Source of the DNA: Candidatus Methylomirabilota bacterium
Lineage (GTDB): Bacteria > Methylomirabilota > Methylomirabilia > Methylomirabilales > JACPAU01
Direction of reading: 5' to 3'
DNA: 5,621 bases
NCBI GenBank assembly: GCA_023249205.1
Contig: JAHFDC010000075.1
Span: forward strand, 1-5,621
Shown here one piece after another: positions 102 to 5,621 of the stretch (position 1 is the stretch's first letter; the number at the start of each line of letters is the position of its first letter). The notes beneath the pieces were generated by a model, which did not search any database, was not told the origin of the DNA, and saw nothing but the letters and a program-made list of their open reading frames with translations. The position numbers and the translations under genes were made by a program.

Positions 102-3100
102 ATGGCTTTCGACAAGCGGAAGGCTATTGACAACGCCCTAGCCTTCACCCAGCAGGGACGGCTCGAGAAGGCCATCGGCGAGTACCAGAAAATCCTCGAG
201 GCCGACCCCAGGGATCTCAGCGTCATCAACACGCTCGGGGACCTGTACGCGCGGACCGGGAAGAAGGGCGAGGCGATTGATCACTACATGAGCCTCGGCG
301 ATACCTATCGGAGGGACGGGTTCCCCGCCAAGGCCACCGCGGTGTACAAGAAGGTCATCAAGCTGGACCCGGGGAATTTGCAGGCCCAGACACTCTGCGC
401 CGACCTGTACGCCGAGCAGGGCCTTGTGGCTGAGGCGAAGCAGCAACTGCTCCTGATCGCCGAGCAGTGCAACAAGGCCGGGGATACGAAGGAAGCTCTC
501 GCGGTCTACCAAAAAGTCGTGACCCTGGATCCAGGCAATGTGGCGGCGGCGACGAAACTCTCCCAGTTGCTCGCGCGCCAGGGGATGGGGCAGGACGCCT
601 ATACGCACCTGGCCCGGAGCGCTCAGCAGTGCCTGGCGGCGGGCCAGGACGCGGAGGCCCTGAAGATCTTCCGGCGGATGCTCCAGGTCAATGCGCAGGG
701 CTTCGAGGCGCACCTCGGACTCGGCCGCCTCCTGGCCAGGACCGGATCGGCCGAAGGCATCCAGGCGCTGAAGGCCGCGGCCAGCCTGCCCCCCGGTGAC
801 GCGGCGCAGTGGGCCTCCCTCGGCGATGGCTTCCGCGAGGCTGGGGACGGGAAGCGGGCCCACGAGGCCTACAACAAAGCGCTCGGGCTGGACATCGGCC
901 GCTGGGAGATCCACCTTCGCCTCGCCGCCCTCGCAGCGGGGCAGAGAGATCACGCCCGGGCGGTCGAGGAGGTCCGCCAGGCCATGGATCCTGCAGTGGA
1001 GGCCGGGCGGGGTCAAGAAGTCGCCCGGGTCCTGAAGGAGCTGTCGGCGATAGCGCCCGGTGAGGCGCTGTACCGCAGGGCCCTGGTGGAAGTCCTGAGC
1101 CGGCTCCAGGACAAGCTTGCTCTGGCGGATGCCTACCGGGGTCTCGGGCAGGTGCTGGAGAAGCAGGGCGACCGGACGGGCACTCTTGAGGCCTATCGCA
1201 GTCTGCAGGAACTGGACCCGCGCGCGCGCGACGCGGCCGAGAAGATCGCGAGCCTCTCTCCTCCCCGCCCCGCCGCCCCCGCCAAGGCGCCGCCGCCCCC
1301 GCCTCCCCGCCCCGCCGCCCCCACCAAAGCGGCGCCACCCCCGACTACCGTGGAGTTGGATCCAGGGCTGATTGCTCTCTCGGAGGGAGAGGAGGCCCCG
1401 GCCGAGGAGCCGGGGACAGTTACCCTGGATGAGAACGCGACTGACGATGCGCGCGCCTACGTTGCCCGCCTGGAGAAGGAGCTGGGAGGGGGCAGGGGCG
1501 AGGGCGCCTTCGACCTTACGGAAGCGGCGCAGGAAGGCGGGCTGGACGCCGCGGCCATTGCCCACGAAGCGGAACAGATGCTGGGGGAGATCGGGGCCGC
1601 CGGGGAAGAGCACCCGGCCGAGGGGGTTCTCGAACTCCTGGAGGACTCCTCCGTTGCCGCGGCGGCGGCCGGGGCTCCTGCCCTTACGGAGGGCCTCGCG
1701 CTGGAGGTGGGCGAGGCCGAGGCGCCGGTCGAATCCCCGCCGGCCGAGGCCGAGGATAGCCAGGTGAGCGACCACGTCGCCAAAGGGGAGGTCTACCTGA
1801 AGTACGGACTGGTGGACAAGGCGATTGAGCACCTGCAGCAGGCCCTGAGCCTCTCCCCGCGGAACCTGAAGGCGCGGCAGCGCCTCAAGGAAGTCTATCT
1901 GGATCGGAACCTCGCGGACCAGGCGGTCAAGGAGGGGCTGAGTATCGCCTCCATTTTCATGAGCCGCGGGGCGGGGGCCGAGGCGAAGGTGGAGCTGGAA
2001 TCCCTGGCCAAACTGGACCCCGCCAATGCGCAGGTGCGGGAGGCCCTGGAGGGGCTGGTGGGGAAGGCGGCCCGTCCGGCAGCGCGGCCGACCCCTCGCA
2101 AGCCTGCGGCCGCACCGCCGGCGCCTGCCAGGGCGCCCCTGCCAAAGCAGGCGGCGAAGGCCAGGCCCCTCGGGGAGGCCGCGGAACTGGCGGAGGTGGA
2201 CTCCTTCCTCCAGCAGGGGATGGTGGAGGAGGCGCGTGGCGCTCTGGAACGGATCCTGGCGGCAGACCCCGGGAACGCCGAAGCCCTGCGGCGACTCGAG
2301 GCGCTCGAGGCCCTGCCCGCCGCGGCGTCCGCCTTCGAGGGTATCGTCCCCGGGGTGGGAACGTTCGTGGGAGGCCAGGCGGCGGAGACCGCGGGTGAGC
2401 TGGGCGGGGAGGCGGCTCCCCCCGAGCCGCCTGGCGAGGCCCCCACCGGGGAACCCGCGCGGCCTTTCTCGTTTCTGCCGTCCTCCGACGATGTCTCAGC
2501 CGTTTTCAAGGTGGCCCAGGAGGAAGGCCCCGGGGAGGCGGGCTACGTGGATTTCGGAACCGACCTGATCGGGGAGATCGGCGTCGGGTCCCCTGGGGAC
2601 GCGGCACCCCTGCTGACGGAAATCCTGCAGGAGTTCCGAAAGGGCGTCCGGGAGCAGCTGAGCGCGGAGGACTACGAGACCCACTACAACCTGGGGATCG
2701 CGTACAAGGAAATGGAGTTGTACGACGAGGCCATCGAGGAGTTCCGCCTGGCCGCCAAGGAGCCGGGTCGGGCCCTCGCCTGTGCAAACCTCCTGGGGCT
2801 CTGTTTCCTGGCCAAGGCGGAACCCGCGCAGGCCGTCGCGGAACTCGAGCAGGGACTCACCCTGCCGGGGATCCTGAGCGAAGAGGCGTGGGCCCTCCGG
2901 TACGACCTCGCCACCGCGTACGAGGCCACGGGAGACGCCGCCAAGGCCTACGAGCTGCTGAGCGCCCTTCATGAGGAGGCTCCCAAGTTCCGGGACGCGA
3001 AAGCCCGCTTGCGGGATCTCAAGGGTCGGCTGAAGGAGCCACCCCCCGGGAGGGTCCGCCCCGCCGCCGGCCCGGCCGTCCGGCCGGCCGAGGCCCCCAC

Positions 3101-3191
3101 CCCGCCCCCTCCGGCCCCTGCCGCAGAACCCCCGGGGCCGCCGCCGCAACCGGGGAAGAGCGCCAAGAAGAAAAAGATCTCCTTCATCTAA
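102..3191 (+). CDS. Large cytoplasmic TPR scaffold protein with Pro/Ala linkers
   Basis: This 1029-residue protein is built of tetratricopeptide repeats, helical hairpins that act as protein-protein scaffolds. It has no signal peptide and no membrane segment, so it is probably cytoplasmic. The N-terminal array (about 8-385) shows typical endings such as KILEADPRD, KVIKLDPGN and KVVTLDPGN. A Pro/Ala linker (387-415) and an acidic Ala/Glu-rich stretch (420-555) follow. A second TPR block (556-655, with GEVYLKYGLVDKAIEHLQQA) leads through another Pro/Ala linker (656-690) to a single TPR (695-738). After a low-complexity acidic region comes a C-terminal block (835-975) with the highly TPR-like THYNLGIAYKEMELYDEAIEEF at about 860-881, split here as THYNLGIAYKEM and ELYDEAIEEF. 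The end is a Pro-rich tail plus a basic AKKKKISFI terminus. Similar multi-block TPR proteins occur near motility or pilus genes in deltaproteobacteria-like genomes, but the specific role is unknown. The ExeA-like ATPase downstream could be a partner; that is inference. The TAA stop lies at the edge of the repeat element. Confidence 0.93.
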   Translation: MAFDKRKAIDNALAFTQQGRLEKAIGEYQKILEADPRDLSVINTLGDLYARTGKKGEAIDHYMSLGDTYRRDGFPAKATAVYKKVIKLDPGNLQAQTLCADLYAEQGLVAEAKQQLLLIAEQCNKAGDTKEALAVYQKVVTLDPGNVAAATKLSQLLARQGMGQDAYTHLARSAQQCLAAGQDAEALKIFRRMLQVNAQGFEAHLGLGRLLARTGSAEGIQALKAAASLPPGDAAQWASLGDGFREAGDGKRAHEAYNKALGLDIGRWEIHLRLAALAAGQRDHARAVEEVRQAMDPAVEAGRGQEVARVLKELSAIAPGEALYRRALVEVLSRLQDKLALADAYRGLGQVLEKQGDRTGTLEAYRSLQELDPRARDAAEKIASLSPPRPAAPAKAPPPPPPRPAAPTKAAPPPTTVELDPGLIALSEGEEAPAEEPGTVTLDENATDDARAYVARLEKELGGGRGEGAFDLTEAAQEGGLDAAAIAHEAEQMLGEIGAAGEEHPAEGVLELLEDSSVAAAAAGAPALTEGLALEVGEAEAPVESPPAEAEDSQVSDHVAKGEVYLKYGLVDKAIEHLQQALSLSPRNLKARQRLKEVYLDRNLADQAVKEGLSIASIFMSRGAGAEAKVELESLAKLDPANAQVREALEGLVGKAARPAARPTPRKPAAAPPAPARAPLPKQAAKARPLGEAAELAEVDSFLQQGMVEEARGALERILAADPGNAEALRRLEALEALPAAASAFEGIVPGVGTFVGGQAAETAGELGGEAAPPEPPGEAPTGEPARPFSFLPSSDDVSAVFKVAQEEGPGEAGYVDFGTDLIGEIGVGSPGDAAPLLTEILQEFRKGVREQLSAEDYETHYNLGIAYKEMELYDEAIEEFRLAAKEPGRALACANLLGLCFLAKAEPAQAVAELEQGLTLPGILSEEAWALRYDLATAYEATGDAAKAYELLSALHEEAPKFRDAKARLRDLKGRLKEPPPGRVRPAAGPAVRPAEAPTPPPPAPAAEPPGPPPQPGKSAKKKKISFI
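1261..1344 (+). repeat. 42-bp tandem duplication in the Pro/Ala linker
   Basis: Two adjacent 42-bp units (1261-1302 and 1303-1344) match at 37 of 42 positions. Being a multiple of three, the duplication keeps frame and encodes the 14-residue units PPRPAAPAKAPPPP and PPRPAAPTKAAPPP (from about residue 387). It lies in the flexible linker after the first TPR array, so it changes linker length rather than a folded domain. Replication slippage in GC-rich sequence is the likely origin. Confidence 0.8.
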
Positions 3192-3391
3192 CGTGACTCC
3201 AACGAATTGGAGATGATGCTCACGCGACGAGTGACGTGCCGGGCCACATGACGAGCATCACGAGGCCCGAGGGAGGAGCGGGTTCCCGCGGGTGGGGAGG
3301 TGTCCGCAGTGTGACCGTTGAGGGCCGCCGCGGGCAGCACTCGAAGGGTGGTCGGAGAACGAAGTCAGGCGACGTGAGTTGGCCCGGCACG
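3189..3391 (+). repeat. Structured intergenic repeat element, copy 1 (candidate ncRNA)
   Basis: This noncoding segment aligns with 5461-5621. The first 90 nt (3189-3278) match copy 2 without gaps at 83/90 positions. After that only blocks are shared, notably 3305-3323 (16/19) and 3355-3378 (21/24), separated by about 29 nt of extra sequence in this copy. Homology begins at the stop codon of the TPR gene. Visible pairings include hairpin CTCCAA/TTGGAG (3197-3202 with 3207-3212, loop CGAA), CGTGA/TCACG (3192-3196 with 3220-3224), TGATGCTC/GAGCATCA (3214-3221 with 3253-3260), CGGGCC/GGCCCG (3240-3245 with 3264-3269) and a 12-bp helix (3235-3246 with 3380-3391). Some of these exclude one another. 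No plausible protein is encoded. It could be a structured RNA, a 3'-UTR element or a small nonautonomous mobile element. The strand is assigned from the direction of the neighbouring genes, and the right boundary is uncertain. Confidence 0.75.
3235..3391 (+). other. 12-bp perfect inverted repeat closing the 3' half of copy 1
   Basis: CGTGCCGGGCCA at 3235-3246 is the exact reverse complement of TGGCCCGGCACG at 3380-3391. As RNA, this 12-bp GC-rich helix would close a domain of about 133 nt containing smaller hairpins: GCGG/CCGC at 3278-3281 with 3286-3289, and GTC/GAC at 3364-3366 with 3371-3373. It competes with the local CGGGCC/GGCCCG helix that uses 3264-3269. Copy 2 has the left arm, but the window ends before the right arm would appear. 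Confidence 0.6.
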
Positions 3392-3427
3392 AGCGCCGTC
3401 TCGAGTCGGGAGAGGATCGCAGCGCTC
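3391..3427 (+). promoter_or_regulatory. Leader stem-loop before the ATPase gene
   Basis: GAGCGC at 3391-3396 is the perfect complement of GCGCTC at 3422-3427, and inside it TCTC (3399-3402) can pair with GAGA (3410-3413). The structure ends one base before the Shine-Dalgarno region of the ATPase gene, which it leaves free. Whether it belongs to the repeat element cannot be told because copy 2 is cut by the window edge. A 6-bp stem in sequence this GC-rich may be accidental. Confidence 0.3.
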
Positions 3428-3428
3428 C

Positions 3429-3436
3429 GGGGAAGG
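3429..3436 (+). promoter_or_regulatory. Ribosome binding site that decides the ATPase start
   Basis: GGGGAAGG lies 5 nt before the ATG at 3442. The reading frame is open further upstream to a TTG at 3379, but that codon sits at the edge of the repeat's 12-bp inverted-repeat arm and the added 21 residues (starting MARHERRLES) resemble nothing in the family. The ATG at 3442 gives the expected MSYEQFYGLREQPF start. Confidence 0.7.
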
Positions 3437-3441
3437 CACCC

Positions 3442-4296
3442 ATGAGTTACGAGCAGTTCTACGGCTTGCGGGAGCAGCCGTTCGCCAATACCCCCGATCC
3501 ACGCTTCTATTTCGACGAGCGGGAGCACGCCAATGTGCTCGCCCGCCTCATGCACGCCGTCACCACCAGGAAGGGGCTGGCGGTGGTGGTGGGGGATCTG
3601 GGGACCGGGAAGACCATGCTCGCCCGCCGGATGCTGGACGCCCTGGACGAGGGCCAGGTGGAGTCCGCGCTGCTGGTCATCATCCACTCCGCGATCACCC
3701 CCGAGTGGCTCCTCCGCAAGATCGCCCTGCAGCTCGGGGTGGAGGACATCCCCGAGACCGCCGACAAGGTCGCCATTCTCACCGTCCTGTACAAGCGGCT
3801 CGAGGTGTTGCAGGGGGAGGGAAAGAAAGCCGTGGTGCTGATTGACGAGGCGAACATGCTCCAGCGACGGGAGGTCATGGAGGAGTTCCGTGGCCTGCTG
3901 AATCTGGAGGTCCCGTCGGGGAAGCTCGTCACCTTCATTTTTTTCGGCCTCCCCGAGCTGGAGGAGCACCTGGCGGTGGACCCCCCGCTGGCGCAGCGGG
4001 TGGCCCTGAAGTGCCGGATGCGGGCCTTCAACGCGGAGACCACCCGGGCCTACATCCAGCACCGGCTGCGGGTCGCCGGGGCCACCCGCGAGCTCTTCGC
4101 CCCGGAGGCCCTGGAGGCGATCCACCGCCACGCCCGGGGCATCCCCCGGGTCATCAATACGCTGTGCGACAATGCGCTGCTGGAAGGCTTCCTCCTGAAG
4201 AAGAAGGACCGGATTGACGCGGAGCTGGTGGAGAGCGTGGCCCGCGACCTCGGCGTGGCCCCGGCGCGCGCCGCGACCGTCGGCGACCGTCGGTGA
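3442..4296 (+). CDS. ExeA/MshM-family AAA+ ATPase
   Basis: The 284-residue protein opens with YEQFYGLREQPFANTPDPRF, the N-terminal signature of ExeA/GspA/MshM ATPases (general secretion and MSHA-type pilus systems). The Walker A motif is GDLGTGKT at 51-58 and Walker B is VVLIDEA at 131-137. FFGLPELEEHL follows at about 167-177, where relatives commonly have GQPEL, and the sensor-2-like RGIPRVINTLCDNAL is at 232-246. There is no transmembrane segment and no C-terminal peptidoglycan-binding domain, so it matches the short, MshM-like form rather than the long membrane-spanning Aeromonas ExeA. It should bind and hydrolyse ATP in the cytoplasm and may drive assembly of an envelope complex. The partner is not visible in this window. 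It sits 6 nt upstream of pgsA and probably shares its transcript. TniB/IstB-type transposition ATPases are an alternative for a bare AAA module, but the N-terminal signature argues against them. Confidence 0.9.
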   Translation: MSYEQFYGLREQPFANTPDPRFYFDEREHANVLARLMHAVTTRKGLAVVVGDLGTGKTMLARRMLDALDEGQVESALLVIIHSAITPEWLLRKIALQLGVEDIPETADKVAILTVLYKRLEVLQGEGKKAVVLIDEANMLQRREVMEEFRGLLNLEVPSGKLVTFIFFGLPELEEHLAVDPPLAQRVALKCRMRAFNAETTRAYIQHRLRVAGATRELFAPEALEAIHRHARGIPRVINTLCDNALLEGFLLKKKDRIDAELVESVARDLGVAPARAATVGDRR

Positions 4297-4302
4297 GGCG
4301 CG

Positions 4303-4851
4303 GTGAACCTCCCGACCACCCTCACCCTCATCCGGATCTTCCTGGTCCCGGTCCTGATGGTTTTCCTCATCGCCACCGCTCGGCCCTACCCGATGGTGGC
4401 CGTGGCGATTTTCCTTCTGGCGGTCCTCACAGACTGGCTGGACGGCCACCTGGCCCGCCGCCGCCGGCAGGTCACGACGCTCGGCACCCTGCTGGACCCC
4501 ATTGCCGACAAACTCCTCATCGCCGCCGCCCTCATCTCACTGGTCGAGGTGGACAAGATCCCGGCCTGGATCGTCGTCATCCTCGTGGGGCGGGACATCG
4601 CCGTGACCGGCCTGCGGGGGATCGCCGCGGCGCAGCGGGTGGTAATCGCGGCCAGCGACTGGGGGAAATCCAAGATGGCGGCGGAGGTGGTCGCCGTGAC
4701 GCTCCTGATCCTGAGCCTGCGGGGGGCGCCGCTCGCCGACTGGCCCGTCCGGATCGGGACCGTGGTGTTGTGGGGCGCGATGGCGATTGCCGTCGTCTCG
4801 GGGGTGGACTACTTCCGGAAGTTTTGGCGCCAGGTTGATCTGAACCGTTGA
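4303..4851 (+). CDS. pgsA: CDP-diacylglycerol-glycerol-3-phosphate 3-phosphatidyltransferase
   Basis: PgsA transfers a phosphatidyl group from CDP-diacylglycerol to sn-glycerol-3-phosphate, giving phosphatidylglycerol-phosphate and CMP. This is the committed step to phosphatidylglycerol and cardiolipin, at the inner membrane. The 182-residue product has the complete CDP-alcohol phosphotransferase motif D-x2-DG-x2-AR-x8-G-x3-D-x3-D: D44, D47, G48, A51, R52, G61, D65 and D69. Downstream, GRDIAVTGLR (96-105) and AASDWGKSKMAAE (116-128) match the PgsA subfamily, although the usual GKxKT reads GKSKM. There are several hydrophobic helices (for example 10-25, 30-43, 71-81 and 150-168). The length is normal. 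The GTG start at 4303 gives MNLPTTLTLIRI, a typical PgsA N-terminus. Its weak Shine-Dalgarno (GAGG at 4295-4298) overlaps the stop codon of the ATPase gene, which suggests translational coupling. Confidence 0.95.
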   Translation: MNLPTTLTLIRIFLVPVLMVFLIATARPYPMVAVAIFLLAVLTDWLDGHLARRRRQVTTLGTLLDPIADKLLIAAALISLVEVDKIPAWIVVILVGRDIAVTGLRGIAAAQRVVIAASDWGKSKMAAEVVAVTLLILSLRGAPLADWPVRIGTVVLWGAMAIAVVSGVDYFRKFWRQVDLNR

Positions 4852-4855
4852 GGGG
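4850..4855 (+). promoter_or_regulatory. Ribosome binding site favouring the plsY start at 4861
   Basis: GAGGGG overlaps the pgsA stop codon (TGA at 4849-4851) and lies 5 nt before the GTG at 4861. The alternative in-frame GTG at 4855 would begin inside this site and has no other nearby Shine-Dalgarno. The two starts differ by only two residues. Confidence 0.5.
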
Positions 4856-4860
4856 TGCCG

Positions 4861-5463
4861 GTGGGGGTGGAGTTCCTGGTGGTCCTGGCCGGGTACCTTC
4901 TCGGCTCGGTACCGTTCGGCCTCCTCCTCGGCTGGCGCCGGGGGGTGGACATCCGCGAGCGGGGGAGCAGGAACATCGGCGCGACGAACGTCCTGCGGGT
5001 GGTGGGGAAGGCGGAGGCGGCGGCGACACTCGTGCTGGACGGGCTGAAGGGGGCGGCGCCGGTCCTGGCGGCCCGGGTCCTGGGGACTGGCGACCCCTGG
5101 GCGGCGGCCGCGGGGCTGTCCGCGGTCCTGGGCCACTGCTTCCCGGTCTTCCTCCGGTTCCGCGGCGGCAAGGGCGTGGCCACGGCCTTGGGCGCGCTCC
5201 TGGCCGCCCTTCCGGCCGTGGGGCTCGTGGCCGTCTTGGTCTGGCTGCTCACGGCCCTGTCTTTCCGCTATTCTTCCCTGGCGGCGCTGCTCGCCGCCGC
5301 CAGCGTGCCCGTGGCCGCCGCGGCCTGGGAGGGCCGCGGCCCCCTTCTGGCCTTCACGCTGGTGCTGGCAGGGCTGATCGTCGTCCGGCACCACGAGAAC
5401 ATCCGCCGCCTCTGGCGGGGGGAAGAGCAGAAGATCGGGCAGCGCGCGGCGCCCGTCGCCTAG
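4861..5463 (+). CDS. plsY: Acyl-phosphate:glycerol-3-phosphate acyltransferase PlsY
   Basis: PlsY is a polytopic inner-membrane enzyme that transfers an acyl chain from acyl-phosphate (made by PlsX) to sn-glycerol-3-phosphate, giving 1-acyl-glycerol-3-phosphate, the first step of phospholipid synthesis. From the GTG at 4861 the protein has 200 residues, the normal family length. All hallmark segments are present: GYLLGSVPFG (11-20), GSRNIGATNVLR (35-46; many relatives have GSGN), LDGLKG (59-64), GHCFPVFLRFRGGKGVAT (91-108) with the glycine-rich substrate loop, and the C-terminal RHHENIRRLWRGEE (176-189). Hydrophobic segments alternate with these loops. It follows pgsA by 9 nt (3 nt if the GTG at 4855 is used), so the two glycerol-3-phosphate-consuming enzymes are probably cotranslated. 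The TAG stop coincides with the left edge of repeat copy 2. Identification is secure; the exact start is less so. Confidence 0.96.
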   Translation: MGVEFLVVLAGYLLGSVPFGLLLGWRRGVDIRERGSRNIGATNVLRVVGKAEAAATLVLDGLKGAAPVLAARVLGTGDPWAAAAGLSAVLGHCFPVFLRFRGGKGVATALGALLAALPAVGLVAVLVWLLTALSFRYSSLAALLAAASVPVAAAAWEGRGPLLAFTLVLAGLIVVRHHENIRRLWRGEEQKIGQRAAPVA

Positions 5464-5621
5464 CGTGACTCTCACGAGTTGGAGATGATGCTCACGCGAG
5501 GCGTGACGTGCCGGGCCAAATGACGAGCATCACGAGGCCCGAGGGAGGAGGCGGCCGGAGGCGTACGCAGTTTGTACGTTGAGGACCGCCGACGACCGAG
5601 AACGACGTGAGGCGACGTCAG
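5461..5621 (+). repeat. Structured intergenic repeat element, copy 2 (cut by window end)
   Basis: This is a second direct copy of the 3189-3391 element, starting at the plsY stop codon. Preserved segments are CGTGA/TCACG (5464-5468 with 5492-5496), TGATGCTC/GAGCATCA (5486-5493 with 5525-5532) and CGGGCC/GGCCCG (5512-5517 with 5536-5541). The first hairpin is weakened by one wobble pair and one mismatch. Further on, CGTAC/GTACG (5562-5566 with 5574-5578), GGCGG/CCGCC (5550-5554 with 5586-5590) and GACGT/ACGTC (5604-5608 with 5615-5619) can form hairpins. It is shorter than copy 1 across the middle by about 29 nt. No rho-independent terminator (GC stem plus T run) is seen after plsY. The right end is outside the window. 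Confidence 0.75.

Follow-up and report, generated by a model that had tools for sequence, protein, structure and literature searches.

Several small repeats of bacterial genomes resemble the element described here, as far as the portions of the cited papers covered by this work describe them. RUP of Streptococcus pneumoniae is a small, non-coding, AT-rich repeat of 107 bp, present in many copies and bounded by IS630-like inverted ends; it inserts at TA, and IS630-Spn1 is its presumed mover (PMC2229807, PMC3049150). ERIC (IRU) of the enterobacteria is an imperfect palindrome of about 127 bp with TA ends that lies between genes, where its orientation matters for the neighboring mRNA (PMC2229807), and BOX of S. 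pneumoniae is modular, with constant outer parts, optional inner modules and a predicted RNA fold (PMC3049150). Miniature inverted-repeat transposable elements (MITEs) are typically AT-rich (PMC10969869), and IS630-family elements, which carry a transposase gene, duplicate TA on insertion (PMC2170065). Here we describe a GC-rich repeat with two copies in a 5,621-nucleotide stretch of DNA (the window), which is the whole of contig JAHFDC010000075.1 in a draft genome (GCA_023249205.1; 1.33 Mb, 64% complete) of a Candidatus Methylomirabilota bacterium. We conclude that this repeat is a MITE comparable to RUP, ERIC and BOX, being small (cores of 123–233 bases), without a transposase gene and present in many copies (24 places in the host genome).

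The repeat shares with RUP its size, lack of coding content, copy number, type of ends and use of TA, but it differs in its richness in GC, its exchangeable inner arms and its docking at stop codons; RUP's likely mover resides in the same genome, whereas none was seen for the repeat in its own genus (PMC2229807, PMC3049150). With ERIC it has in common an imperfectly palindromic form, TA ends and a position between genes, yet no ERIC sequence is recognizable in it by eye, the hosts differ, and the portion of PMC2229807 covered here mentions neither covariation nor stop-codon docking of this kind for ERIC. Like BOX, the repeat combines constant outer parts with optional inner ones, although these are arms of a single rod, and we noticed no tandem modules like boxB (PMC3049150). 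Its apparent duplication of TA within CTAG follows the IS630 family, whose members, unlike the repeat, encode their own transposase (PMC2170065). The GC content of its located cores (0.58–0.73) departs from the AT-richness of MITEs, a typical rather than strict feature (PMC10969869).

We consider it likely that the repeat is a non-autonomous element that inserts at TA, mostly within CTAG at stop codons, that is moved in trans by IS630-type transposases, and whose core has a predicted plus-strand fold. The observations beneath this reading are empty sites, CTAG/TA ends, a unit found at unrelated places, in-frame docking at genes and covariation of paired positions.

In the host genome, BLAST returned 26 matches (E up to 1.6e-6) at 24 places, two pairs of matches (L023/L019 and L025/L018) being pieces of one copy each. 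A pattern for the right end, allowing up to three mismatches, gave 40 matches against 0 for its reversed control. BLAST matched the repeat in 19 of 60 genomes around and including the host, and a covariance model built from 25 compact cores placed the family in 51 of the class's 95 genomes, from 23 of 33 genera; per-genome counts from this model are rough, with at most 37 candidates scored per genome and a weak match of the model to the opposite strand of copies. Among the matches listed in a pattern scan of named genomes are copies from Methylomirabilota and from Rokubacteria; a further one (L164) belongs to a record titled Chloroflexi, perhaps through a misplaced contig or else through transfer. 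Three genomes of family f6 (G027, G029 and G032) give 14–18 weak model matches each, with a best E of about 1e-9, and may harbor a related family. Rfam gave no significant match for the window or for six distant loci, and the plasmid and phage collections gave none for one compact copy. An initial annotation of the window had called the element unrecognised, proposed an Rfam scan and expected many genomic copies of a true family. The copies are there and no Rfam family is significant in the loci scanned; the description suits the family, but not the kind, as MITEs that duplicate a TA target are already known.

Elements measure about 125 to 270 bases. The usual form begins with a left part of ~47 bases, consisting of GYGTGACTCCAACGAATTG and a loosely conserved stretch, and continues with the core, GTGCCGGGCCAAATGACGAGC...GCGACGTCAGTTGGCCCGGCAC, which spans 123–126 bases when compact and reaches as many as 233 where additional arms are present. 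The terminal inverted repeats, GTGCCGGGCC...GGCCCGGCAC, lie on the core, and both ends change together among subfamilies; in the usual long form, the left end of the element matches the right end only in part. Three copies (L321, L322 and L344) consist of the core alone between CTA and TAG. Two copies in one genome (L369 and L371) have cores that are 99% alike and similar left parts in unrelated flanks; left part and core together form a unit that has spread.

To look for empty sites, we joined the flanks of host-genome copies without the element and sought the junctions in genomes of the same genus. Uninterrupted relatives were found for 8 of the 12 copies compared (L006, L008, L013, L017, L018, L019, L020 and L021), which identifies the repeat as inserted DNA. 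At five of these (L006, L017, L018, L020 and L021), a CTAG-like site occurs once when the site is empty and at both ends when it is filled, as in L017, where the filled site reads CCCTAG|...|CTAGACC and the empty one CCCTAGGCC. The empty relative of L008 has GTAG or CTGA. In an end-base tally with F-type controls (F is a second repeat family, described below), the left end is CTAG in 31 of 51 copies, and in several copies the base preceding the left TA is T or G, yet C stands at the right end. Because of these tallies and mixed copies, we favor a target duplication consisting of the TA inside CTAG, so that the element would begin with G and end with C; a four-base duplication of CTAG fits the mixed copies less well.

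The ends of the repeat coincide with the ends of genes. By a crude coding rule based on GC content by codon position, 88 of the 149 copies whose flanks are long enough have a converging, opposite-strand gene that terminates in frame exactly at their right end. The other two phases account for 10 and 4 copies, and coding-like plus-strand frames at the same place number 9, 34 and 12. A stop codon sits at the docked right end in 87 copies (77 TAG, 8 TGA and 2 TAA), and the genes concerned fall into 72 protein clusters, with NusG, FtsA, S10, PyrH and Liv permeases among those recognized by eye. Orientation could be judged for the 65 copies whose left end was recognized at 12 of 21 bases. At their left ends a gene stops in phase in 19 cases, compared with 2 and 4 for the remaining phases, and 58 of the 65 dock somewhere, 41 at the right end only, 13 at the left only and 4 at both, leaving 7 docked at neither. 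The bias of 41:13 toward the right end (p 0.0002) is a hint only, as it does not differ significantly from the 16:12 distribution between the two ends of F (p 0.13). Target choice explains part of the docking, since CTAG is often a stop codon at other places of the retrieved loci too (32 of 78 and 23 of 45, or 55 of 123, against 14 and 6 in one control phase). The excess over this background (58/65 versus 55/123) is likely due to the loss of harmful insertions.

Other elements of these genomes also dock. IS630 copies from the class whose ends are C-TA-G dock in 6 of 9 cases; those with other ends dock in 0 of 6, which carries little weight because 5 of the 6 have terminal bases from which no stop codon can arise. 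L283, L402, L404, L407 and L408, which are IS630 elements with ATGARTC ends, lie in CTAG, and at several of them a gene terminates with its stop codon. The second family, F, is a repeat of about 200 bases in G000–G003 (for example L227, L233 and L237) with the ends C-TA|ATACAAACGA...TCGTTTGTAT|TA-G. Its sequence is unrelated to that of the repeat, which it adjoins in L009, L011 and L015, and 28 of its 54 ends dock at stop codons (TAA); F is likely another IS630-type MITE.

The core is predicted to fold into one long rod. For 25 cores, RNAalifold gave −55.8 kcal/mol for the plus strand versus −39.9 for the other strand. We then examined an alignment (MAFFT) of 37 compact cores, selected from a larger set in about 30 genomes, to which own-genus genomes and G090 contribute several each. 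In these, 97.8% of cells are paired and 21 of 37 pairs have changes on both sides, counts that leave out long-armed copies and are inflated by the partial relatedness of the cores. On each of five measures, all 500 shuffles stayed below the value observed, and slid partners pair in only 24–40%. Seven of the 21 covarying pairs belong to the inner helix, whose five central pairs have 11 different 5′ sequences and are nevertheless paired in 36 of the 37 cores and in 103 of 108 copies located by the model. Tandem GA/GA mismatches are conserved at four places in 25–32 of the 37 cores, with GC/GC instead at one place in 10, and G·T cells outnumber A·C cells by 29 to 5. The excess of G·T over A·C cells and the retained tandem G·A pairs point to the plus strand as the one that folds. 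A strand-specific predicted fold is strongly conserved, with covariation in its support, while its action as RNA is something that we only infer. The initial annotation had left a choice between a structured RNA and a nonautonomous mobile element; mobility is upheld by the uninterrupted sites and flanks, and of the structured RNA the conserved predicted fold stands.

A bolder interpretation takes the repeat as a new class of structured RNA that travels as an IS630-type mini-transposon. The plus-strand rod of Watson–Crick and tandem G·A pairs would be the working RNA, which might, for example, bind the transposase or silence transcription entering the element, and the element would be a stop-codon specialist, with TAG- and TGA-docking subfamilies, that spreads without breaking genes. 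We regard this as a tentative possibility. It is also conceivable, though unlikely, that the paired changes arose from DNA processes rather than selection on a folded strand, either through template switching that makes imperfect palindromes perfect or because both terminal repeats must fit one transposase. The coordinated change of both ends among subfamilies suits such processes, as does the location of 12 of the 21 covarying pairs in the outer helix, a helix that coincides with the terminal repeat. The seven pairs of the inner helix, the GA/GA mismatches that have been kept rather than perfected and the strand-biased wobbles do not.

In the window, the longest direct repeat pairs 3181–3278 with 5453–5550 at 90% identity, ungapped. 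The identity of 83 of 90 positions reported earlier between 3189–3278 and 5461–5550 holds, with 7 positions differing, as does the likeness said to continue in blocks, with 3355–3378 and 5598–5621 at 88%; the two copies are also intergenic and in the same orientation, as had been stated. In addition, both begin within the stop codon of the preceding gene and so represent the left-docked kind, which is rarer in the family. Copy 1 follows a plus-strand gene for a TPR protein (102–3191), whose TAA stop codon (3189–3191) overlaps its left end. The probable left-end TA, placed from the sequence and the end-base tally, is at 3189–3190 and forms this TAA with base 3191. Aligned with other copies, the element occupies 3191–3390 on the plus strand (200 bases), with the left part at 3191–3235 and the predicted rod of the core at 3236–3390 (covariance model R1, 59.7 bits), one arm being longer than in the compact form. 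The place of the right-hand TA, at 3391–3392 on the plus strand, reads GA, presumably through decay, where other copies have CTA. Genes for an AAA ATPase (3442–4296), a CDP-alcohol phosphatidyltransferase (4303–4851) and, on the plus strand, a PlsY-like acyltransferase (PF02660; 4861–5463) lie between the copies. The TAG stop codon of the last (5461–5463) overlaps the left end of copy 2 and is made up of the left-end TA (5461–5462, plus strand) and base 5463. Copy 2 (5463–5621, plus strand) is incomplete, as the contig ends inside it; its core (5508–5621, plus strand) scores 119.8 bits with R1, is cut at the 3′ end and covers model positions 1–113 of 125.

Movement of the repeat in trans by IS630-type transposases would account for the TA rule, the CTAG target and a short likeness of ends. 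IS630 is also reportedly a family that prefers TA in CTAG. Stop codons would be hit because CTAG is the preferred target and, in these genomes, often contains a C-TAG stop. Insertion would restore the TAG, from the target TA and the terminal G of the element, and harmful insertions would be lost. The predicted plus-strand fold of the core would act as RNA or as single-stranded DNA, and it may be needed for movement or make the element tolerable to the docked gene. Genes of the IS630 type (PF13358) occur in 45 of the 95 class genomes. One such element with a DDE_3 domain, L405, comes from a genome of another genus that also carries the repeat (G062) and has the ends CTA|GTGCCGTGTCCC...GGGACACGGCAC|TAG; it starts with GTGCCGTG, compared with GTGCCGGG for the repeat, in the same CTAG setting. 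L411, L414 and L421, from other genera, have GTGT ends in CTAG and a short likeness to the ends of the repeat.

Several observations weigh against this account. In the host's own genus we found no intact IS630 gene (none in G000, G001 and G003, and one partial match in G002), and across the class IS630 is not associated with the element (26 of 51 genomes with it versus 19 of 44 without; p 0.54). The likeness to the ends of L405 is short, about 7 bases. The empty relatives of L013 and L019 have no CTAG. For the most part, transcription of the docked genes concerns the strand opposite the one that folds better, and the outer-helix pairs noted above are weaker evidence for a fold because they double as terminal repeat. 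Finally, 11 of 152 copies (control, 1 of 754) repeat 10–28 bases of the right-hand flank, mostly the end of the docked gene, at the left, within the 37–77 bases to the left of the core (L309, L382, L386, L380, L033, L391, L042, L031, L379, L326 and L007). In L382 the segment is present three times, and four of the eight TGA-docked copies (L309, L380, L382 and L033) are among the eleven. An enzyme that duplicates TA does not explain these long repeats.

Other mobilizing systems fare worse. A single-strand HUH/Y1 mechanism, with the repeat as a REP/RAYT or IS200/IS605-like mini-element whose top-strand hairpins are cut next to CTAG with no true target duplication, would also leave CTAG at both ends and would suit a repeat of which one strand folds better. 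We judge it improbable: a Y1 gene was found in G002 only (L281, which we take to be RAYT-like) and not in G000, G001 or G003, its flanks, GGGGTCAGACT...AGTCTGACCCC, are unlike those of the repeat, and the cores have matched inverted ends and occur alone between CTA and TAG. An IS481-type mover, suspected because its target is NCTAGN, was set aside, as G000–G003 contain no PF00665 (rve) match. Very improbable, in our view, is RNA-mediated spread in the manner of short interspersed elements, in which plus-strand RNA would be copied into a nicked stop codon with variable duplications. Uniform right ends, variable left parts and the 11 copies with gene-end repeats would be expected of it, yet no reverse transcriptase (PF00078) was found in the four own-genus genomes or associated with the element in the class (16 of 51 versus 18 of 44; p 0.39), and the clear empty sites have CTAG-sized junctions rather than long duplications. 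Group II introns end in GTGYG...AY; such an intron was dropped as a candidate, as no domain V-like hairpin was seen by eye. Hardly credible is an immobile 3′-untranslated RNA or terminator inherited with its genes, which the position directly after stop codons and the presence in G009 and G015 of one copy each, at an orthologous place, might suggest. The empty sites contradict it, and the 72 protein clusters among 87 docked genes, docking at either end and a near-identical unit at unrelated places speak against it; we keep it solely as a role that individual copies may have taken on later.

The repeat is itself interrupted in the host genome (L016) and in G001 (L192 and L215). The break always follows GACGTSAG and is filled by IS110-family elements, of which there are at least two different sequences (domains DEDD_Tnp_IS110 and Transposase_20); IS110 elements may use the repeat as a target.

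Bacterial MITEs can fold, but to our knowledge evidence that selection has maintained a fold throughout a class is rare. In the literature covered (portions of PMC2229807, PMC3049150 and PMC10969869, together with titles and openings of abstracts), we met no MITE in which a strand-specific fold covaries across a class or which docks systematically at stop codons, which is no proof of absence from print. The family provides a large number of natural copies, along with empty sites and data on orientation, so that whether a mini-transposon can contain a working RNA becomes a testable question. The insertion rule would also offer a simple route to a harmless transposon, in which the target CTAG is often a stop codon in these GC-rich genomes and is restored by insertion, and the same stop-codon habit is seen in the unrelated repeat F and in full IS630 copies of the class.

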